A stretch of DNA of 36,327 nt. Source: a virus. The notes beneath the pieces are model-generated. The model saw nothing but the letters and a program-made list of their open reading frames with translations, was not told the DNA's origin and did not search any database. Below, one piece after another: positions 6,066-25,980 of the stretch. Both the position numbers and the translations under genes were made by a program. The stretch spans positions 1 through 36,327 of IMG/VR virus record IMGVR_UViG_3300022752_000195. One strand, written 5' to 3'. Each line of letters starts with the position of its first letter. Within the stretch, counting starts at the first letter, position 1.

Positions 6066-6263
6066 TCAATCTTTTGGTTGATCTAATTTTTGCTCTTGCT
6101 GTTCTGTCTGACCTGTTTTTAGGTTTGTGACAAGAATTCTAACGCAACCGGTATTTTTATCGATTGCTTGAAGTTCGACTTTGTACTCATCGCCGATAAA
6201 GAACGGACGACGTTTGCTTAACCACCAGTACATAGAAGTAACTACTTTACGATCTGTAGACAT
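6066..6263 (-). CDS. Hypothetical small protein, 65 aa, first gene of minus-strand operon
   Basis: The frame is open upstream to 6344, but the start at 6263 (MSTDRKVVTSMYWWLSKRRP) has AAAGGAG nearby and leaves room for a divergent promoter. The protein is basic at the N-terminus, then beta-rich (FFIGDEYKVELQAIDKNTGCVRILVTNLKTG), suggesting a small barrel of Tudor/SH3 type, and ends in a Gln/Glu/Asp tail. I do not recognise it. As the promoter-proximal gene of a replication operon it may be an early regulator or accessory protein, but this is position-based only. Confidence 0.6.
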   Translation of the reverse strand: MSTDRKVVTSMYWWLSKRRPFFIGDEYKVELQAIDKNTGCVRILVTNLKTGQTEQQEQKLDQPKD

Positions 6264-6324
6264 TCGTATAATCTCCTTTGAGATAAAAACAAACAATAAT
6301 ATCATTGTACCACGAGATGAATCA
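6264..6324. promoter_or_regulatory. Divergent intergenic region, probable promoters for both operons
   Basis: These 61 bp separate the minus-strand replication operon from the plus-strand helicase operon. An AT-rich core (AAACAATAATATCATTGTAC) offers -10-like elements on both strands (TACAAT on minus, AATAAT/ATATCA on plus), but I see no convincing -35 for either. AAAGGAG for the minus gene is clear. The plus-strand helicase has only a weak GAGATGA. That a promoter exists follows from the gene arrangement; its exact position is not resolved. Confidence 0.4.
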
Positions 6325-8781
6325 ATGAAGGTCGAAATCCTCAATCATATAATAAGAATAGATGATCCTACAGAAGATTTAGAATCGGATCTTACTGAGA
6401 AATTATCATACATTGATAAATCTAAGCAATATCAAATAAAGAAGATGCAGAAAAATCCATTCTCAATGCGATCTAAACTTTATCAGCAGCTAGTTCAACA
6501 ATCAAAAGGCACTTTATTAGAAAAAGTTGACAATACTCTATTCGTTCCATGTGGTTTTTCTAATTATTTAATTAAAATATTATCAAATCAAGCAGTTGAG
6601 ATCAATGATCTAAGATCAGAAACCGGATCTACAATATCTCTACCTTGGGTTAATAAAAATAACATAATAGAATTAAGAGATTATCAAAAAGAAGCAGTTG
6701 AAAAAGCTATGTGCCATGCGAAAGGACAGTTGATATTGATGTTCGATGGCAGTTTAAAAGCTGTAGAAGATATTGTTGTTGGAGATAGGGTCATGGGTCC
6801 AGATTCAAAACCAAGAACTGTACTTCATACAACTTCTGGCTTTGGAGAAATGTTCAAAATAACTCCTGTAAAAGGAGATCCATTTATAGTTAATGGAAAT
6901 CATTTACTATCGCTTCGTCGCTCTTATTCTTCGCTTAATAGAAAAGTAAGTAAAAATAAATATCGTCATAAAAACAGTCAATTAGATGATAATGTTATTA
7001 ATGTTTCTGTTTATGATTACTTTAATCAAACAAAATCTTTTAAACATAAATATAAACTATATAGATCAGATTTAATAGAGTTTAATACTGAAGAACAAGA
7101 TCTACCAATAGATCCTTACATATTAGGTCTTTGGTTAGGAGATGGAATAAGTGCAGATTCTGCTATTGTAAATGTAGATAATGAAATAATTGATTCAATT
7201 TATCAATTCGCTAAAACCAATAACTTAAATGTTATTAAATACAAAGATAATATAACTTATAGATTAAGCGGCGATGGATCCTTAGGATCTAATATGTTTT
7301 TAACAAATTTAAAAGAGCTTAATTTATTAAAAAATAAACATATTCCCCATGTTTATAAAACAGCTTCTATTAATCAGCGACTACAGTTATTGGCTGGCTT
7401 ATTGGACACTGATGGACATTATAGTGAAGGTTTATTTGATATTTCTCAAAAAAATAAGAAGTTAGCAGAAGATATTGTTTATGTTGCTAGATCTTTAGGT
7501 TTGGCTGCCTATGTTAAAGAAAGATTCAAAGTAGCAACAAACAGTAAAGAAAAAATAAAAAGATCTTATTATAATATTACTATCTCTGGTCATATTAATA
7601 AAATTCCAACTAAAGTAATAAGAAAACAAGCATTAAACAGAAAACAAATTAAAAATGTGTTAAATGTTGGTTTTAAGATCGAAAAAGTGCAAGATAGTGA
7701 TTTTTATGGCTTTACTGTTGATCACGATCATTTATATCTATTAAATGACTTCACAGTTATTCACAACTGTAATTATCGTGGAATTATTAACTTGGCGACA
7801 GGGCTCGGTAAAACGAAATCCGCCATTGTTCTTATTCGTCAGATCAAGAAAAAAACTTTGATAATCTGCCCTTCTAACTCTGTTGCAAATCAATTTAAAG
7901 ATGAGTTAACTGCATCGTTTGGACCTGGAAGAGTAGGTTTTATAGGCGATGGTAAATACAGACCAGCAGATATAACTGTATGCATAGCTGCTTCTGCTTT
8001 TAATTCAATTGAAAAGATCAAGAAGATGGATCTTGGCTTGATCATATTTGATGAGGTTCATCATATAGCAGCAAATACTTTCTTTTCAATATCTCAAAAT
8101 CTATCGAGTGTAGGTCGAGTTTATGGATTAACAGCTACTTCTTTTAGATCAGATGGCAAAGATGTAATGATAACAGCTGGATGTGGGGATGTTTTAGTAA
8201 AGCGTGATGCTGCCTGGGGAGTTGCTAATAAATGGCTCGCTGATCCATATTTTATAGTTAGAAAGATTAAAACAACTGGAATAGATTTCAAGGATGACAA
8301 GCTCAAATCATATAAGACTCATGTTTTAAACTGTAAAGAGATGACATCCAGGATCGAATCTGATGCTCGTAAATTTATGGATGCAAAAAAATCTGTACTT
8401 ATATTAGTGGACGAAGTAGAGCATGGAGAGATGTTGTCAAAAGCCCTATCTATTCCTTTTGCTCAAGGAGAAGATAAGCAATCAAACACATATGTTGATC
8501 AGTTAAACAAAGGACTTATTCCCGGACTTGTTGGAACCGATGGAAAAATATCAGAAGGAACAGATACTAGAAATGTTGATGTTCTTATTTTGGCAAATTT
8601 TAGTGCATCAAAAGGAGCTGTTCTACAAGCTGTAGGACGAGGTCTTAGAAAGACAGATACAAAGAATTCAGTAATAATATTAGATTATATGCCAACCGGA
8701 TCTTCTATGTTAACCAGACATGCGAATCAGAGAATTTCTTACTATAAAGAAATTACTTCTAACATTAAGTTGGTAGAATAA
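6325..8781 (+). CDS. SF2 DNA helicase (UvsW-like), interrupted by an intein
   Basis: An ATG at 6325 gives 818 residues. The open frame further upstream would overlap the divergent gene. Removing the intein (residues 130-481) leaves a 466-residue helicase. Extein motifs: LRDYQKEAVEKAM (Q-motif region), ATGLGKTKSA (Walker A/motif I), IIFDEVHH (motif II, DEVH), GLTATSFRSDG (motif III) and LQAVGRGLRKTD (motif VI). This set and length fit phage UvsW-type helicases, which remodel recombination intermediates and stalled forks and drive recombination-dependent replication. RecA, SbcC, SbcD, SSB and a resolvase in the same window support that role. About 130 residues of N-terminal domain precede the ATPase. 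A related XPB-like helicase is the main alternative. Confidence 0.85.
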   Translation: MKVEILNHIIRIDDPTEDLESDLTEKLSYIDKSKQYQIKKMQKNPFSMRSKLYQQLVQQSKGTLLEKVDNTLFVPCGFSNYLIKILSNQAVEINDLRSETGSTISLPWVNKNNIIELRDYQKEAVEKAMCHAKGQLILMFDGSLKAVEDIVVGDRVMGPDSKPRTVLHTTSGFGEMFKITPVKGDPFIVNGNHLLSLRRSYSSLNRKVSKNKYRHKNSQLDDNVINVSVYDYFNQTKSFKHKYKLYRSDLIEFNTEEQDLPIDPYILGLWLGDGISADSAIVNVDNEIIDSIYQFAKTNNLNVIKYKDNITYRLSGDGSLGSNMFLTNLKELNLLKNKHIPHVYKTASINQRLQLLAGLLDTDGHYSEGLFDISQKNKKLAEDIVYVARSLGLAAYVKERFKVATNSKEKIKRSYYNITISGHINKIPTKVIRKQALNRKQIKNVLNVGFKIEKVQDSDFYGFTVDHDHLYLLNDFTVIHNCNYRGIINLATGLGKTKSAIVLIRQIKKKTLIICPSNSVANQFKDELTASFGPGRVGFIGDGKYRPADITVCIAASAFNSIEKIKKMDLGLIIFDEVHHIAANTFFSISQNLSSVGRVYGLTATSFRSDGKDVMITAGCGDVLVKRDAAWGVANKWLADPYFIVRKIKTTGIDFKDDKLKSYKTHVLNCKEMTSRIESDARKFMDAKKSVLILVDEVEHGEMLSKALSIPFAQGEDKQSNTYVDQLNKGLIPGLVGTDGKISEGTDTRNVDVLILANFSASKGAVLQAVGRGLRKTDTKNSVIILDYMPTGSSMLTRHANQRISYYKEITSNIKLVE
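6712..7767 (+). mobile_element. Intein with LAGLIDADG homing endonuclease, in the SF2 helicase
   Basis: 352 in-frame residues. They begin with Cys (CHAKGQLILMFDGS, block A, then KAVEDIVVGDRVMGPDS) and contain FIVNGNHLLSL (block B). Two endonuclease motifs are present: YILGLWLGDG and LLAGLLDTDGHYS. The end is FYGFTVDHDHLYLLNDFTVI-HN (blocks F/G), followed by extein Cys as the +1 nucleophile. All splice residues needed for the standard Cys pathway are present, so splicing should restore AM-CNYRGIINLATGLGKT. The insertion lies about 10 residues before the helicase P-loop. Both Asp-containing endonuclease motifs are intact, so homing may still be active. Confidence 0.93.
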
Positions 8782-8785
8782 AAAC

Positions 8786-8830
8786 ATTGAGAAATTATAA
8801 ACTCTCAATAGTTCTAAAGTCGTGGAACTA
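8786..8830 (+). terminator. Twin hairpins after the helicase gene
   Basis: ATTGAGA (8786-8792) pairs with TCTCAAT (8803-8809), 4 nt after the helicase stop. TAGTTC (8809-8814) pairs with GAACTA (8825-8830). The two stems share base 8809, so they stack or compete. No T-run follows, so this is not a textbook terminator. It may instead separate the helicase transcript from, or form the 5' part of, the RNA region that follows. Confidence 0.35.
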
Positions 8831-9058
8831 GATTACAAATTGTTAGCGGCATGGGAATGGCGACCCATTAAAAACTGATATCTATGCTGTTTGTCTTTTC
8901 ACACTGGCGGGCTCGTTGGATTGAGCATGTTTAATTGCCTTGTTTTGGGTTGTCTGGCTTCACAGCGGACTTTTTGGTACAGTTGCTAACTGCAGAAAGA
9001 AAAGACCTGCGACACAAGGGCGAGTGTATAAAATGCCCATATTTATTTAGGAGACAGT
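8811..9058 (+). ncRNA. Gene-free region: candidate structured RNA or long structured leader of the dUTPase gene
   Basis: The interval 8782-9058 holds no credible gene. 8821-9020 is about 45% G+C by count, against about 35% in a nearby gene. A hand fold gives a closing stem GTCTTTTC (8893-8900) with GAAAAGAC (8999-9006). Inside it are: a broken stem ACA-x2-GGC (8901-8908) with GCC-x-TGT (8937-8943), enclosing GCTC/GAGC (8911-8914, 8923-8926); GTCTG/CGGAC (8952-8956, 8966-8970); and CAGTT/AACTG (8980-8992). GTTAGC (8842-8847) could form a pseudoknot with GCTAAC (8985-8990). ATGGG/CCCAT (8851-8855, 8863-8867) is another hairpin. GGGCG/TGCCC (9018-9022, 9034-9038) lies just before the dUTPase ribosome site. 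It resembles no tRNA, RNase P or tmRNA that I know. Riboswitch, leader or free sRNA are all possible. Confidence 0.4.
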
Positions 9059-9487
9059 ATGAATCCAGAAAACAAATGTGCTAAACTTTGGAATCAAGAA
9101 GTTCCGCCGCTAAAACTTGAAGATCAAATGCTAAAAAAGATGTTTGAGATGCAAAACTCTCTACAGCTTCGTCTAGGTCAAGATTTTTCTAAGATGGATC
9201 TAAATGAAAGAGTTTCTCTCATAAAAGAGAATTGGACAGCTTTGACTTCTGAATACGTTGAATTATTGGAACGTCTTCCTTGGAAACCCTGGAAGAAATA
9301 CTCAGAAGAACAGAAGAAAGATTGGACTTCAGAAGAGCAAAAACTTGAAACATATTATGAAGTATGCGACATGATGCACTTCATGATAAACATATGTCTT
9401 CTAGTTGGCGTAGATGCAGATACTATGTGGAAACTCTACTATACAAAGAATGCAGAAAACTTCGCTAGACAAGATAGAGGATATTAA
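9059..9487 (+). CDS. dut: Dimeric all-alpha dUTPase (dUTP diphosphatase, MazG-related)
   Basis: 142 residues; the start follows TTTAGGAGACAGT. It hydrolyses dUTP to dUMP and pyrophosphate, keeping uracil out of phage DNA and feeding dTMP synthesis. The family signature is visible: acidic helix residues E65/E68/E71, then LPWKPWKKYS, then E101 and D104 in the ETYYEVCDMMHF helix, and the C-terminal YYTKNAENFARQDRGY. This combines the MazG-like EExxE...ExxD metal site with the dimeric dUTPase tail (N-x2-RQ-x2-GY). It is preceded by a long structured, gene-free leader and followed by a methyltransferase gene. Trimeric dUTPase is excluded by the all-helical sequence. A dCTP/MazG pyrophosphatase is a less likely alternative. 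Confidence 0.88.
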   Translation: MNPENKCAKLWNQEVPPLKLEDQMLKKMFEMQNSLQLRLGQDFSKMDLNERVSLIKENWTALTSEYVELLERLPWKPWKKYSEEQKKDWTSEEQKLETYYEVCDMMHFMINICLLVGVDADTMWKLYYTKNAENFARQDRGY

Positions 9488-9516
9488 GTATAACTCTAAT
9501 AAGAGGAGTGTCCTCT
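9488..9516 (+). promoter_or_regulatory. Ribosome-site hairpin and GTATAAC motif before the methyltransferase
   Basis: AGAGGA (9502-9507) and TCCTCT (9511-9516) are perfect inverted copies around GTG and abut the ATG at 9517. The Shine-Dalgarno GAGGAG therefore lies in the 5' arm. GTATAAC (9488-9494) lies just upstream. The hairpin would hide the ribosome site until melted or until a ribosome from the dUTPase gene passes. The structure is seen; regulation is inferred. Confidence 0.45.
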
Positions 9517-10206: not shown

Positions 10207-10227
10207 GAATAGATGGAGTTTAATAAT

Positions 10228-11931
10228 ATGCTTTATGTTAAATCTAAATCTAAAGACATGATCGACAACGCTGACGATATTGAATCTATTGTCACCACTA
10301 CTTTATCTAGAATGGCAACTATAGTTTCTAGAACTCTAGGACCAGGTGGAAGACCTGTACTAATAGAGAGAGAAGGCATGCCGCCTCTCGTTACAAAAGA
10401 TGGAGTTACTGTTGTAAAAGCACTAGGTCTTCCTAGCGCTTCTCATAATATTGTTTTAGACACATGTAAAGAAATATCTCTTAATACAGCTCGAGATGCT
10501 GGCGATGGAACCACTACTGCAATTGTTTTAGCAGATGCTTTAGTTAAATCTGGTAAGCAATTTATGAAAGAAAATCCAAAATACAATCCACAAAAATTTG
10601 TTAATGAATTAAAAGATTGCTATAATAGAGTAATTTTGCCATACTTGAATCAAGTAGCAGTTCCGGTTAAGGATGAAGATTTAAATAAAGTAGCTATGAT
10701 TTCTGCAAATGGAGATGAAGAAATTGCAGACGTTGTGGTTAAAGCTGTTTTAGCAGCCGGAGACGATGGAACTGTCTTGATACAAGAGGACCAAGGCGGA
10801 GGAATGAGAGTTGAAACAATCGATGGCTATATTGTAACATCTGGTCTTAGAGATATTGGTGCTATAGGCAGTTCTTTCATCAATGATAGAGCTGGTCAGC
10901 GTGTAAGGATGGACGAAGGACTTGTTGTTCTTTTTGATGGAACTGTTAATGATCTAGTTCTTCCTGCTGCAATTCAATCAGCAGTAGAAAATGACGTATC
11001 TTATTTTGGAAAACCTATAATAGTTATGGCTCATGGTTTTGCTGACCCGGTTATTGAAAAATTCTTAGTAACCTCTAAAGGAGGTGTAACTGTTCTTCCG
11101 GTTATTGTTCCAAAATCTTCATTGGCAAACTCAAGAACTATGTTTTTATTTGATATGGCAGCGTATACATCGGCAACCGTCATGAATCCTGCTACAGCCG
11201 TAACCTTTGAATCAGTTAATTTTGGAACATTCAAATCTGCTCGAGTTAATACTTACGAAACCTTTATGCAATGTGAGTCAGATTCAGATCTGCTTGAAAG
11301 CAGGGTGAATGAGCTTAAAGCAATATTAAAAGATGCTCATTCAGAGCACGATAAGGCTCATTTGAGAGCAGCAATAGGCAAGCTTACGGGCGGAATATCC
11401 ACAGTGTGGGTAGGTGGAATGACGGACGCTGAGGTTAGAGAAAGAAGAGATAGGGTTCAAGATGCGGTTGAAGCTGTTAGGTCTGCGGTTGCGGAAGGAA
11501 TAGTCGCCGGAGGTGGAGGAACACATCTAGGAATTGTTGAAACAATTTTATCAGTAGAGCACCATGGTCCAAAAAGTTGGAAAGTAATGACCGAAGCCCT
11601 TGTTGCTCCCTTTAAACTTCTTATGACAAACTGTGGAGAGGAAGAAAATATAGAAAAAGCATTGTCTAAAATTATATCTAGTATGGATGAGTTTAAACGA
11701 CCAGCTTTAATATTCGATGCATCAGAACACAGGTACGTTAATCCATATAAGAATGGAGTTGTAGAACCCGCAAAGGTTCATCGTATTGCGATTGGAAATG
11801 CTATATCAGTAGCTTCTTTATTAACAACCCTTGGTGGTGTCGTAGTTTCTCCTAGAGACTATAATCTTGAAACTCAATTAGAAGTATCAAGAGCTGCGTT
11901 TAAAGACATGATTTCAGAAACAGGAGAATAA
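10228..11931 (+). CDS. groEL: GroEL-like chaperonin (Hsp60)
   Basis: I start at 10228 (MLYVKSKSKDM, 567 aa) because ATGGAG lies 8 nt upstream. The in-frame ATG at 10213 is part of that ribosome site. Diagnostic features are VSRTLGPGGRPV, VTKDGVTVV, the nucleotide loop AGDGTTTAIVLA (residues 91-102 with the ATPase Asp at 93) and the late equatorial segment ERRDRVQDAVEAVRSAVAEGIVAGGGG with the second conserved Asp. The length is slightly above E. coli GroEL. The C-terminus lacks the Gly-Gly-Met repeats that line cellular rings. No groES-like gene is in the window, as in some phage chaperonins that work without a co-chaperonin. It probably folds phage virion or replication proteins. It is followed after 1 nt by a membrane-anchored protein. 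Confidence 0.95.
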   Translation: MLYVKSKSKDMIDNADDIESIVTTTLSRMATIVSRTLGPGGRPVLIEREGMPPLVTKDGVTVVKALGLPSASHNIVLDTCKEISLNTARDAGDGTTTAIVLADALVKSGKQFMKENPKYNPQKFVNELKDCYNRVILPYLNQVAVPVKDEDLNKVAMISANGDEEIADVVVKAVLAAGDDGTVLIQEDQGGGMRVETIDGYIVTSGLRDIGAIGSSFINDRAGQRVRMDEGLVVLFDGTVNDLVLPAAIQSAVENDVSYFGKPIIVMAHGFADPVIEKFLVTSKGGVTVLPVIVPKSSLANSRTMFLFDMAAYTSATVMNPATAVTFESVNFGTFKSARVNTYETFMQCESDSDLLESRVNELKAILKDAHSEHDKAHLRAAIGKLTGGISTVWVGGMTDAEVRERRDRVQDAVEAVRSAVAEGIVAGGGGTHLGIVETILSVEHHGPKSWKVMTEALVAPFKLLMTNCGEEENIEKALSKIISSMDEFKRPALIFDASEHRYVNPYKNGVVEPAKVHRIAIGNAISVASLLTTLGGVVVSPRDYNLETQLEVSRAAFKDMISETGE

Positions 11932-16508: not shown

Positions 16509-18116
16509 ATGACCAAGCCAGATAAGAAAACCTCTATAATAAAATGTTATGCTAAATTAGCAAAACAATTAAAAAGACATGTTCAAAATGAAGATTTGAA
16601 TTCTGTTGGAATAACTAGAGATATGGTTTCTCATCATTTTGGATCTCTTTCTAATTTAGAAAAAATAGCAAGAGAAAAACATCCAGGATATTTTTTTGAT
16701 GTGACAGTAGAATCTCTCCACTCTCCTAAAGCTTTGCAAGATCTTAGAGATATTGTTAAAAACAAGAAGAAATTTGTAATAACAACAGCTGTTCAGGGTT
16801 GCGAAGTTCATAAAGATTTTTATAAATCAATAAAGCAATATTGTCAGTTAAATGATGCTCATTTGTTAGTAATAGTAGCATCAGACCCGGCTGCCGCTCA
16901 TGGTAGCAAATGGGGAACAATATCGGCTCAATTGGCGAATGAAACAATTATTATTGAAGATACTAGATTGAATTCGAATGTATTCATAAGTACTATTAAA
17001 CTATCTGCAAAACACATAGATCCTACAACTGGACTTGGTCGAATTGGACAAAGAAATGGAACATTTATATATGCTTCTCCAAAGCAGAGACTAAAACCTG
17101 TTCCTGTTAGTAATTCAAAGTTGCCGCATTTTATGATGACAACCGGAGCTATAACAGTTGCAGATTATGATACGGATAAGTATATGTCTCAAAGAACGGC
17201 ATATATAGCTCAACATGACCATGTTATGGGTGCGGTTGTGTTTGAAATAGAAGATGATGAGACTTATCATTTTACTCAAATTCAATCAGATTCCAAGGGA
17301 TATTTTATAGATCGTGGTTATATCTACAGACCAACCGGAAGATCTCAAGTAAGACCTGAGGCTTTTGTTTTAGGTGATTGGCATTCAGGTGTTACAGATC
17401 CATTAGCTAGAAAAGCATGGGAAGAAATTTCTATAGAAATGAAACCTAAGAAGATAATTCTGCATGATGCATTTGATGGTTTGTCTATAAATCACCATGA
17501 GGAAAAAAATCAGCTTTTAAGAGCAAAAAGAGCAAAATTAGGTCAACTCTCATTAGAGAACGAGTGCATTAATTTTTGCAAAGATCTCATGGAGATGTCA
17601 GATCTTTGTGACGAACTTGTTATAGTTAAATCTAATCATGATCTTTTTCTTGCTAGATATTTAGCAGAGGGTAAATATACAAAAGATCCACAAAATCACA
17701 GGCTGTCGTTAATACTTGCTCTTAAGATGCTGGACGGAGAAGATCCATTGAAGGCAGCTGTTGAAATGTTTGTTGCTGCAAATGATCAAAAAAAGTTAAA
17801 TAAAATAAAATTCTTAAAGTCAGAGGAAGATTTTAAGATAGAAGGAATACAATGCGGAGCTCATGGGCACCAGGGTCCAAATGGAGCTAGAGGAAACATT
17901 GTAAATATGGAAGTTGCTTATGGCAACTCTGTAACCGGACATGCTCATTCTCCAGAGATACTTAGAGGTGCGTGGCAAGTTGGAACCTCATCCCTCCTAA
18001 AGCTAGAATATAACATAGGTGGAGCATCTTCTTGGCTTCATTCTTCATGTTTGATTTGGCCAGGGGGTACAAGACAATTGATAAATTCAATAAACGGAAA
18101 ATGGCAAATTAAATAA
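16509..18116 (+). CDS. Phage metallophosphoesterase, T5 A1-like (possible DNase)
   Basis: 535 residues. The N-terminal 60 residues are helical with a DNA-binding look (ITRDMVSHHFGSLSNLEKIAREKHPGY). The C-terminal half has metallophosphoesterase motifs in the correct order: GDWHSG (D290, H292), LHDAFDG, KSNHD (N376-H377-D378), GAHGH (H452, H454) and TGHAHS (H478, H480). The overall size and arrangement recall T5 protein A1, which is required for first-step DNA transfer and reported as a metal-dependent DNase. I recognise this from layout, not from an alignment. It is the first gene after a strong terminator, with no obvious strong ribosome site (AAGGATAGGCAA), so it may be separately controlled. 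The alternative is an uncharacterised phage phosphodiesterase. Confidence 0.6.
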   Translation: MTKPDKKTSIIKCYAKLAKQLKRHVQNEDLNSVGITRDMVSHHFGSLSNLEKIAREKHPGYFFDVTVESLHSPKALQDLRDIVKNKKKFVITTAVQGCEVHKDFYKSIKQYCQLNDAHLLVIVASDPAAAHGSKWGTISAQLANETIIIEDTRLNSNVFISTIKLSAKHIDPTTGLGRIGQRNGTFIYASPKQRLKPVPVSNSKLPHFMMTTGAITVADYDTDKYMSQRTAYIAQHDHVMGAVVFEIEDDETYHFTQIQSDSKGYFIDRGYIYRPTGRSQVRPEAFVLGDWHSGVTDPLARKAWEEISIEMKPKKIILHDAFDGLSINHHEEKNQLLRAKRAKLGQLSLENECINFCKDLMEMSDLCDELVIVKSNHDLFLARYLAEGKYTKDPQNHRLSLILALKMLDGEDPLKAAVEMFVAANDQKKLNKIKFLKSEEDFKIEGIQCGAHGHQGPNGARGNIVNMEVAYGNSVTGHAHSPEILRGAWQVGTSSLLKLEYNIGGASSWLHSSCLIWPGGTRQLINSINGKWQIK

Positions 18117-25606: not shown

Positions 25607-25609
25607 TAA

Positions 25610-25738
25610 ATGTTTAATGAATCTCAACGTAAAAAAATAAGAACACTATATTTTCTATATACATTAGATAAAATGTGCATTTATTCTTATTCTGCAGCCA
25701 TCGATAACGCTGTATCAAATGATGGTTTTTCAGGATAA
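25610..25738 (+). CDS. Small ORF, 42 aa
   Basis: Starts three bases after the recA stop (TAATAAATG) and reads MFNESQRKKIRTLYFLYTLD then KMCIYSYSAAIDNAVSNDGF and SG. It is a basic, aromatic helix followed by a polar end. Reading frame, tight spacing and a GGA before the start make it plausible, but 42 codons is short and nothing is recognised. Confidence 0.4.
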   Translation: MFNESQRKKIRTLYFLYTLDKMCIYSYSAAIDNAVSNDGFSG

Positions 25739-25741
25739 TAA

Positions 25742-25897
25742 ATGAAAACTGAGCACGACATAAAATCTTACATAATATGTATTAGATTTGCGAAAATGAT
25801 TATTAAGTTAAGGATGCACGAGTCTGAATGGGAGTTGTTTCAATGGGCACAACGCATATACGATATGCCGAAAAGGATTTCATATCAACCGGATTAA
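25742..25897 (+). CDS. Small ORF, 51 aa
   Basis: Follows the 42-aa ORF with 3 nt between and has AGGA six bases before its ATG. It reads MKTEHDIKSYIICIRFAKMI, IKLRMHESEWELFQWAQRIY and DMPKRISYQPD, probably two helices with a Trp-rich second half. The next ORF starts within its last third in another frame. Plausible but unconfirmed. Confidence 0.4.
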   Translation: MKTEHDIKSYIICIRFAKMIIKLRMHESEWELFQWAQRIYDMPKRISYQPD

Positions 25898-25980
25898 AAA
25901 TTTACGAAATAGACAATCCCAATGAAGCGGCTATTGTTTTTAGTTTTATAATATCACTTCGCCGCATGAGAATGGTATGA
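25843..25980 (+). CDS. Small ORF, 45 aa, overlapping and coupled to sbcD
   Basis: GGGAG lies 7 nt before the ATG, a better ribosome site than for either neighbouring small ORF. It reads MGTTHIRYAEKDFISTGLKI, YEIDNPNEAAIVFSFIISLR and RMRMV. The stop overlaps the sbcD ATG as ATGA, so its translation would feed sbcD. It overlaps the 51-aa ORF by 55 nt in another frame. Its real existence is moderately supported. Confidence 0.4.
   Translation: MGTTHIRYAEKDFISTGLKIYEIDNPNEAAIVFSFIISLRRMRMV

Follow-up and report, generated by a model that had tools for sequence, protein, structure and literature searches.

Riboswitches and cis-regulatory leaders of bacteria and phages are structured RNAs that lie directly before metabolic genes and carry invariant loops and covarying stems, and the candidate RNA described here, located upstream of a phage dUTPase gene, is alike in these respects. 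It differs from them in having no Rfam leader or riboswitch match, no terminator, and no sequestered ribosome site in its conserved fold. GOLLD and ROOL are far larger than this RNA. They resemble it as multibranched noncoding RNAs from phages or lake samples (PMC12286853), but nothing matched in the Rfam 15 scan of the present sequence. Candidate RNAs obtained by comparative genomics (PMC2864571, PMC8040213) are likewise conserved intergenic stretches with covariation and no known family, some of them near phage genes; here, in contrast, only two lineages are involved, and the absence of a known family was judged against Rfam.

The window, i.e., the whole stretch of DNA analysed (36,327 nt), is the 36-kb record of an uncultured tailed phage and carries genes for replication and repair, including DNA polymerase III alpha and RecA-like and SbcD-like proteins, together with genes for a portal protein and GroEL. 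The RNA region is flanked by two genes, one for a superfamily 2 helicase, with its stop codon at 8779-8781, and one for a dUTPase/dCTP pyrophosphatase, with its ATG at 9059. Downstream of the latter, in the same orientation, lie a DNA methyltransferase gene and then the GroEL gene. The helicase gene (6181-8781) contains an insertion with Hint and LAGLIDADG homing-endonuclease domains at about residues 178-530 of the protein; this insertion is an intein and is missing from the 467-aa helicase of the relative described below. A perfect hairpin, AGAGGAGTGTCCTCT, spans the likely ribosome site of the methyltransferase gene at 9502-9516 and is not present in the relative. The phage-encoded GroEL-like chaperonin (10213-11931) is 83% identical to that of the relative, and its scores fall well short of the curated NCBIfam cut-offs for cellular GroEL. 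A 535-aa protein encoded at 16509-18116 has a PHROG match (E 1.2e-97) to 'DNA transfer protein', a designation which we take to be associated with T5 A1.

A structured RNA before the dUTPase gene had been proposed in a first-pass annotation made from the window alone. The stretch between the helicase stop and the dUTPase ATG is gene-free, as claimed, with only ORFs of up to 49 aa touching it, and the G+C content is indeed raised (45.0% at 8821-9020 against a window mean of 34.7%, which places it in the top 2.1% of 200-nt stretches). For this to be the longest gene-free stretch, the small ORFs located in a 370-nt gap at 25607-25976 would have to be genes. That gap, between the RecA-like and SbcD-like genes, contains three small ORFs (42, 51, and 50 aa), which may be unannotated small genes. 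The 8-bp closing stem formed by GTCTTTTC (8893-8900) and GAAAAGAC (8999-9006) is exact. However, at least one perfect 8-bp stem occurs in 53% of 248-nt windows of the record, and the single-sequence folding energy is ordinary (z +0.24; -0.46 for 8786-9058; -1.11 for the relative), so that the evidence first put forward is weak by itself.

Rfam 15 at the gathering threshold gave no match in the window, and loose scans returned only minus-strand matches attributable to chance (E 2.4 and E 7.1); with both settings, and in both lineages, no credible Rfam match was obtained, which agrees with the original remark that the RNA did not look like a familiar family. ARAGORN predicted 0 tRNA or tmRNA genes in the window. 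A small protein gene on either strand was rejected: there is no conserved ORF, an ORF of 84 aa on the relative's minus strand shrinks to 26 aa in the window, and alignment gaps are not multiples of three.

The relative was found by a dUTPase search and consists of five IMG/VR contigs, which are mutually identical over 8.7 kb at the locus and were therefore counted as one lineage. Its gene order is the same (helicase stop, RNA, dUTPase start), its spacer is homologous, and the RNA is single copy at the same locus in both lineages. The whole comparison thus consists of two independent sequences, both uncultured, and invariant helices contribute no covariation to it. The spacers of the window and the relative are 71% identical over the BLAST match and 61-62% identical over the whole structure-blind alignment. 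Since four-fold synonymous sites nearby are only 46-58% identical, below the 61-71% of the spacer, purifying selection on the spacer is indicated. Searches at and around more distant dUTPase and helicase relatives did not turn up the RNA, which is likewise absent from other phages with a related dUTPase. BLAST against named phages and plasmids gave short chance matches only, and a DNA pattern scan of GTDB genomes gave five matches, which were judged to be due to chance. Loosened DNA patterns returned only the same five contigs plus matches judged to be due to chance, among which a model search found nothing credible.

The structured RNA would occupy 8786-9038 of the plus strand and is predicted to comprise hairpins A, B, and C, a closed multibranch domain that encloses three more hairpins, and a final small hairpin. 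These parts and the adjoining features are as follows.

8786-8809, plus strand: hairpin A, 7 bp, starting 4 nt past the helicase stop, outside the originally annotated range (8811-9058).
8810-8829, plus strand: hairpin B, 5 bp, lengthened to 6 bp in the relative through an inserted C-G pair.
8841-8880, plus strand: hairpin C, with outer stem TGTTAG (8841-8846) / CTGATA (8875-8880) and inner stem 8851-8855 / 8864-8868.
8885-9016, plus strand: multibranch domain D, with outer stem TGCTGTT (8885-8891) / GACACA (9011-9016) containing one bulge.
8911-8926, plus strand: hairpin E, inside D, with the near-invariant loop GTTGGNTT.
8937-8950, plus strand: hairpin F, inside D, with loop TGTTNT.
8952-8970, plus strand: hairpin G, inside D, with GTC/GAC and GCT/AGC kept.
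9018-9038, plus strand: hairpin H, 5 bp, located about 10 nt upstream of the ribosome site.
9040-9054, plus strand: AU-rich spacer and dUTPase ribosome site, ATTTAGG(AG).
9059-9487, plus strand: dUTPase/dCTP pyrophosphatase gene (dUTPase_2, E 1.2e-10; PHROG nucleoside triphosphate pyrophosphohydrolase).

The element begins about 25 nt earlier than first annotated, with the hairpins at 8786-8809 and 8810-8829. Compensatory changes in its stems were found in the one other lineage carrying the RNA. In five pairs, both partners differ between the lineages. Two of these belong to hairpin A, where ATTGAGA/TCTCAAT of the window corresponds to ATCAAGA/TCTTGGT of the relative and one of the two becomes G-U; the other three are among the four pairs of hairpin E (GCTC/GAGC to ATCC/GGAT). 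About seven further pairs changed on one side and still pair, and two are broken. Compatible changes include one in hairpin F (GCCT/GGGT to ACCT/GGGT) and two in hairpin H (GGGCG/TGCCC to GGGTA/TGCCC), while one U-G pair of hairpin G becomes a mismatch in the relative. Hairpin B reads AGTTC/GAACT in the window and GGCTTC/GGAGCT in the relative. The inner stem of hairpin C is formed in both lineages by different pairs, and its outer stem is invariant, with p=0.83 in the relative's own fold. The outer stem of domain D, which has 7 bp in the relative, continues into the 8-bp closing stem; the latter is invariant and so contributes no covariation. Helices A, D, E, F, G, and H have p >= 0.6 in the fold of the window alone (0.93 for hairpin A, compared with 0.35 for hairpin B). 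The minimum-energy fold of the window sequence departs in part from the consensus (-65.6 kcal/mol versus -45.5 kcal/mol for the consensus pairs alone).

The consensus fold was compared with folds of column-shuffled alignments, a test that is independent of the choice of structure. With structure-blind alignments, z ranged from -4.2 to -6.4, and 0 of 300 shuffles were as good. In a control that slid along 4 kb of aligned DNA, z was -6.7 to -6.8 for the element and +1.8 to -4.3 for windows not touching it; the consensus fold of the element was better than that of all nearby gene windows. A covariance model built from the window sequence and structure scored the relative at 65.0 bits versus 42.1 for a sequence-only model of that stretch, a gain of about 23 bits from structure between two models that are weighted slightly differently. 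In the covariance-model alignment, 97.5% of pair cells were standard versus 35-48% with partners slid by 1-3 columns, a control that leans towards this structure because it was picked after both sequences had been compared. A shuffle control on the pairs alone was weak (63 of 500 as high), as expected for two sequences. The helices are thus kept between the two lineages in a conserved plus-strand fold, and this comparative evidence makes it very probable that the region is a genuine, lineage-restricted structured RNA. The ordinary single-sequence energy and the commonplace 8-bp stem would suit an ordinary spacer with stems formed by chance, but the stability of the two-lineage consensus, the compensatory pairs, and conservation above that of synonymous sites make this highly improbable.

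The block AGTGTATAAAATGCCC, located between the domain and the dUTPase gene, is perfectly kept. Long invariant blocks of this kind would fit protein binding to DNA, and the region might then be a promoter, operator, or origin in which base pairs are incidental. This reading is unlikely in view of the compensatory pairs, the conserved G-U pairs, and the strand difference in consensus energy (-47.9 kcal/mol for the plus strand versus -31.5 kcal/mol for the minus strand). In an RNA, the invariant loops could make contact with a protein or a ligand or take part in a tertiary fold.

A pseudoknot between GTTAGC and GCTAAC had also been put forward. Both strands are present in the window (at 8842 and 8985), where GTTAGCGGC could form 9 pairs with GTTGCTAAC, G-U included, but at most 4 pairs remain in the relative, and it was rejected as a conserved feature. 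The pairing of TGTTAG with CTGATA was preferred because both strands are invariant and form 6 bp in the relative's own fold. A second candidate, pairing GTTGG of loop E with CTAAC (5 pairs in the window and 4 in the relative), was too short to claim. The original proposal of a structured RNA is therefore upheld by conserved stems with compensatory changes, and its pseudoknot and 5' boundary are not.

A competing helix, AGCGGCAT/ATGCTGTT, has p=0.94 in the window and uses strands of the conserved set, but this alternative is weakly supported by the relative. Since the two predicted helix sets compete for the same strands in the window, a switch is possible. The RNA would then be a novel riboswitch-like element controlling the dUTPase-methyltransferase-GroEL operon of the phage. 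It would move between two folds, AGCGGCAT/ATGCTGTT versus TGTTAG/CTGATA plus TGCTGTT/GACACA, in response to a nucleotide or to a factor of phage or host origin; we consider this rather unlikely.

The most likely reading, with a probability of about 0.5, is that the RNA is a cis-acting intercistronic leader of the dUTPase operon. The reasons are that the RNA takes up the spacer, beginning 4 nt past the helicase stop, that its locus is the same in the two lineages, and that it has no terminator of its own. In both lineages it lies, as would be expected of a riboswitch or leader, in the 5' spacer on the same strand as the dUTPase gene and ends about 10 nt short of the ribosome site. On the other hand, the consensus fold leaves the ribosome site unpaired and includes no terminator, so that it lacks the expression platform expected of a riboswitch or leader, and the absence of the RNA from other phages with a related dUTPase also counts against this reading. 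The motif ATTTAGG(AG) recurs at dUTPase loci that have no such RNA and so belongs to the gene rather than to the RNA. The RNA would be transcribed as an intercistronic part of the helicase-dUTPase-methyltransferase-GroEL message and would act in cis, the compact domain setting the processing, stability, or translation of the downstream message while the dUTPase ribosome site remains in the single-stranded AU-rich spacer.

The main rival, which we regard as possible without favouring it, is a free phage sRNA of about 230-250 nt acting in trans, either excised from the message or transcribed from a separate promoter within the 3' end of the helicase gene. A compact self-closed fold, raised G+C, and the perfect conservation of AGTGTATAAAATGCCC between domain and gene would all suit such a molecule, as would a weak promoter-like match ending at 8678. 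The dUTPase gene would then have its own promoter, for which a TATA-like box at 9027-9034 is a candidate; its overlap with hairpin H makes the membership of that hairpin in the RNA less sure. However, promoter-like matches and the TATA-like string both occur at chance level in the window. No intrinsic terminator was found at the 3' end of the RNA, although the phage has a clear one elsewhere (at about 16430), and the terminator match at 8911-8926 corresponds to hairpin E, within the fold.

The element would add to an uncultured phage group a structured RNA without an Rfam match. Its detection illustrates that covariation between just two lineages can reveal an RNA that is missed by single-sequence folding energy. 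Neighbouring genes serve nucleotide metabolism and DNA modification or encode the phage's chaperonin, and if the RNA controls the dUTPase, phage nucleotide pools would be subject to control at the RNA level.
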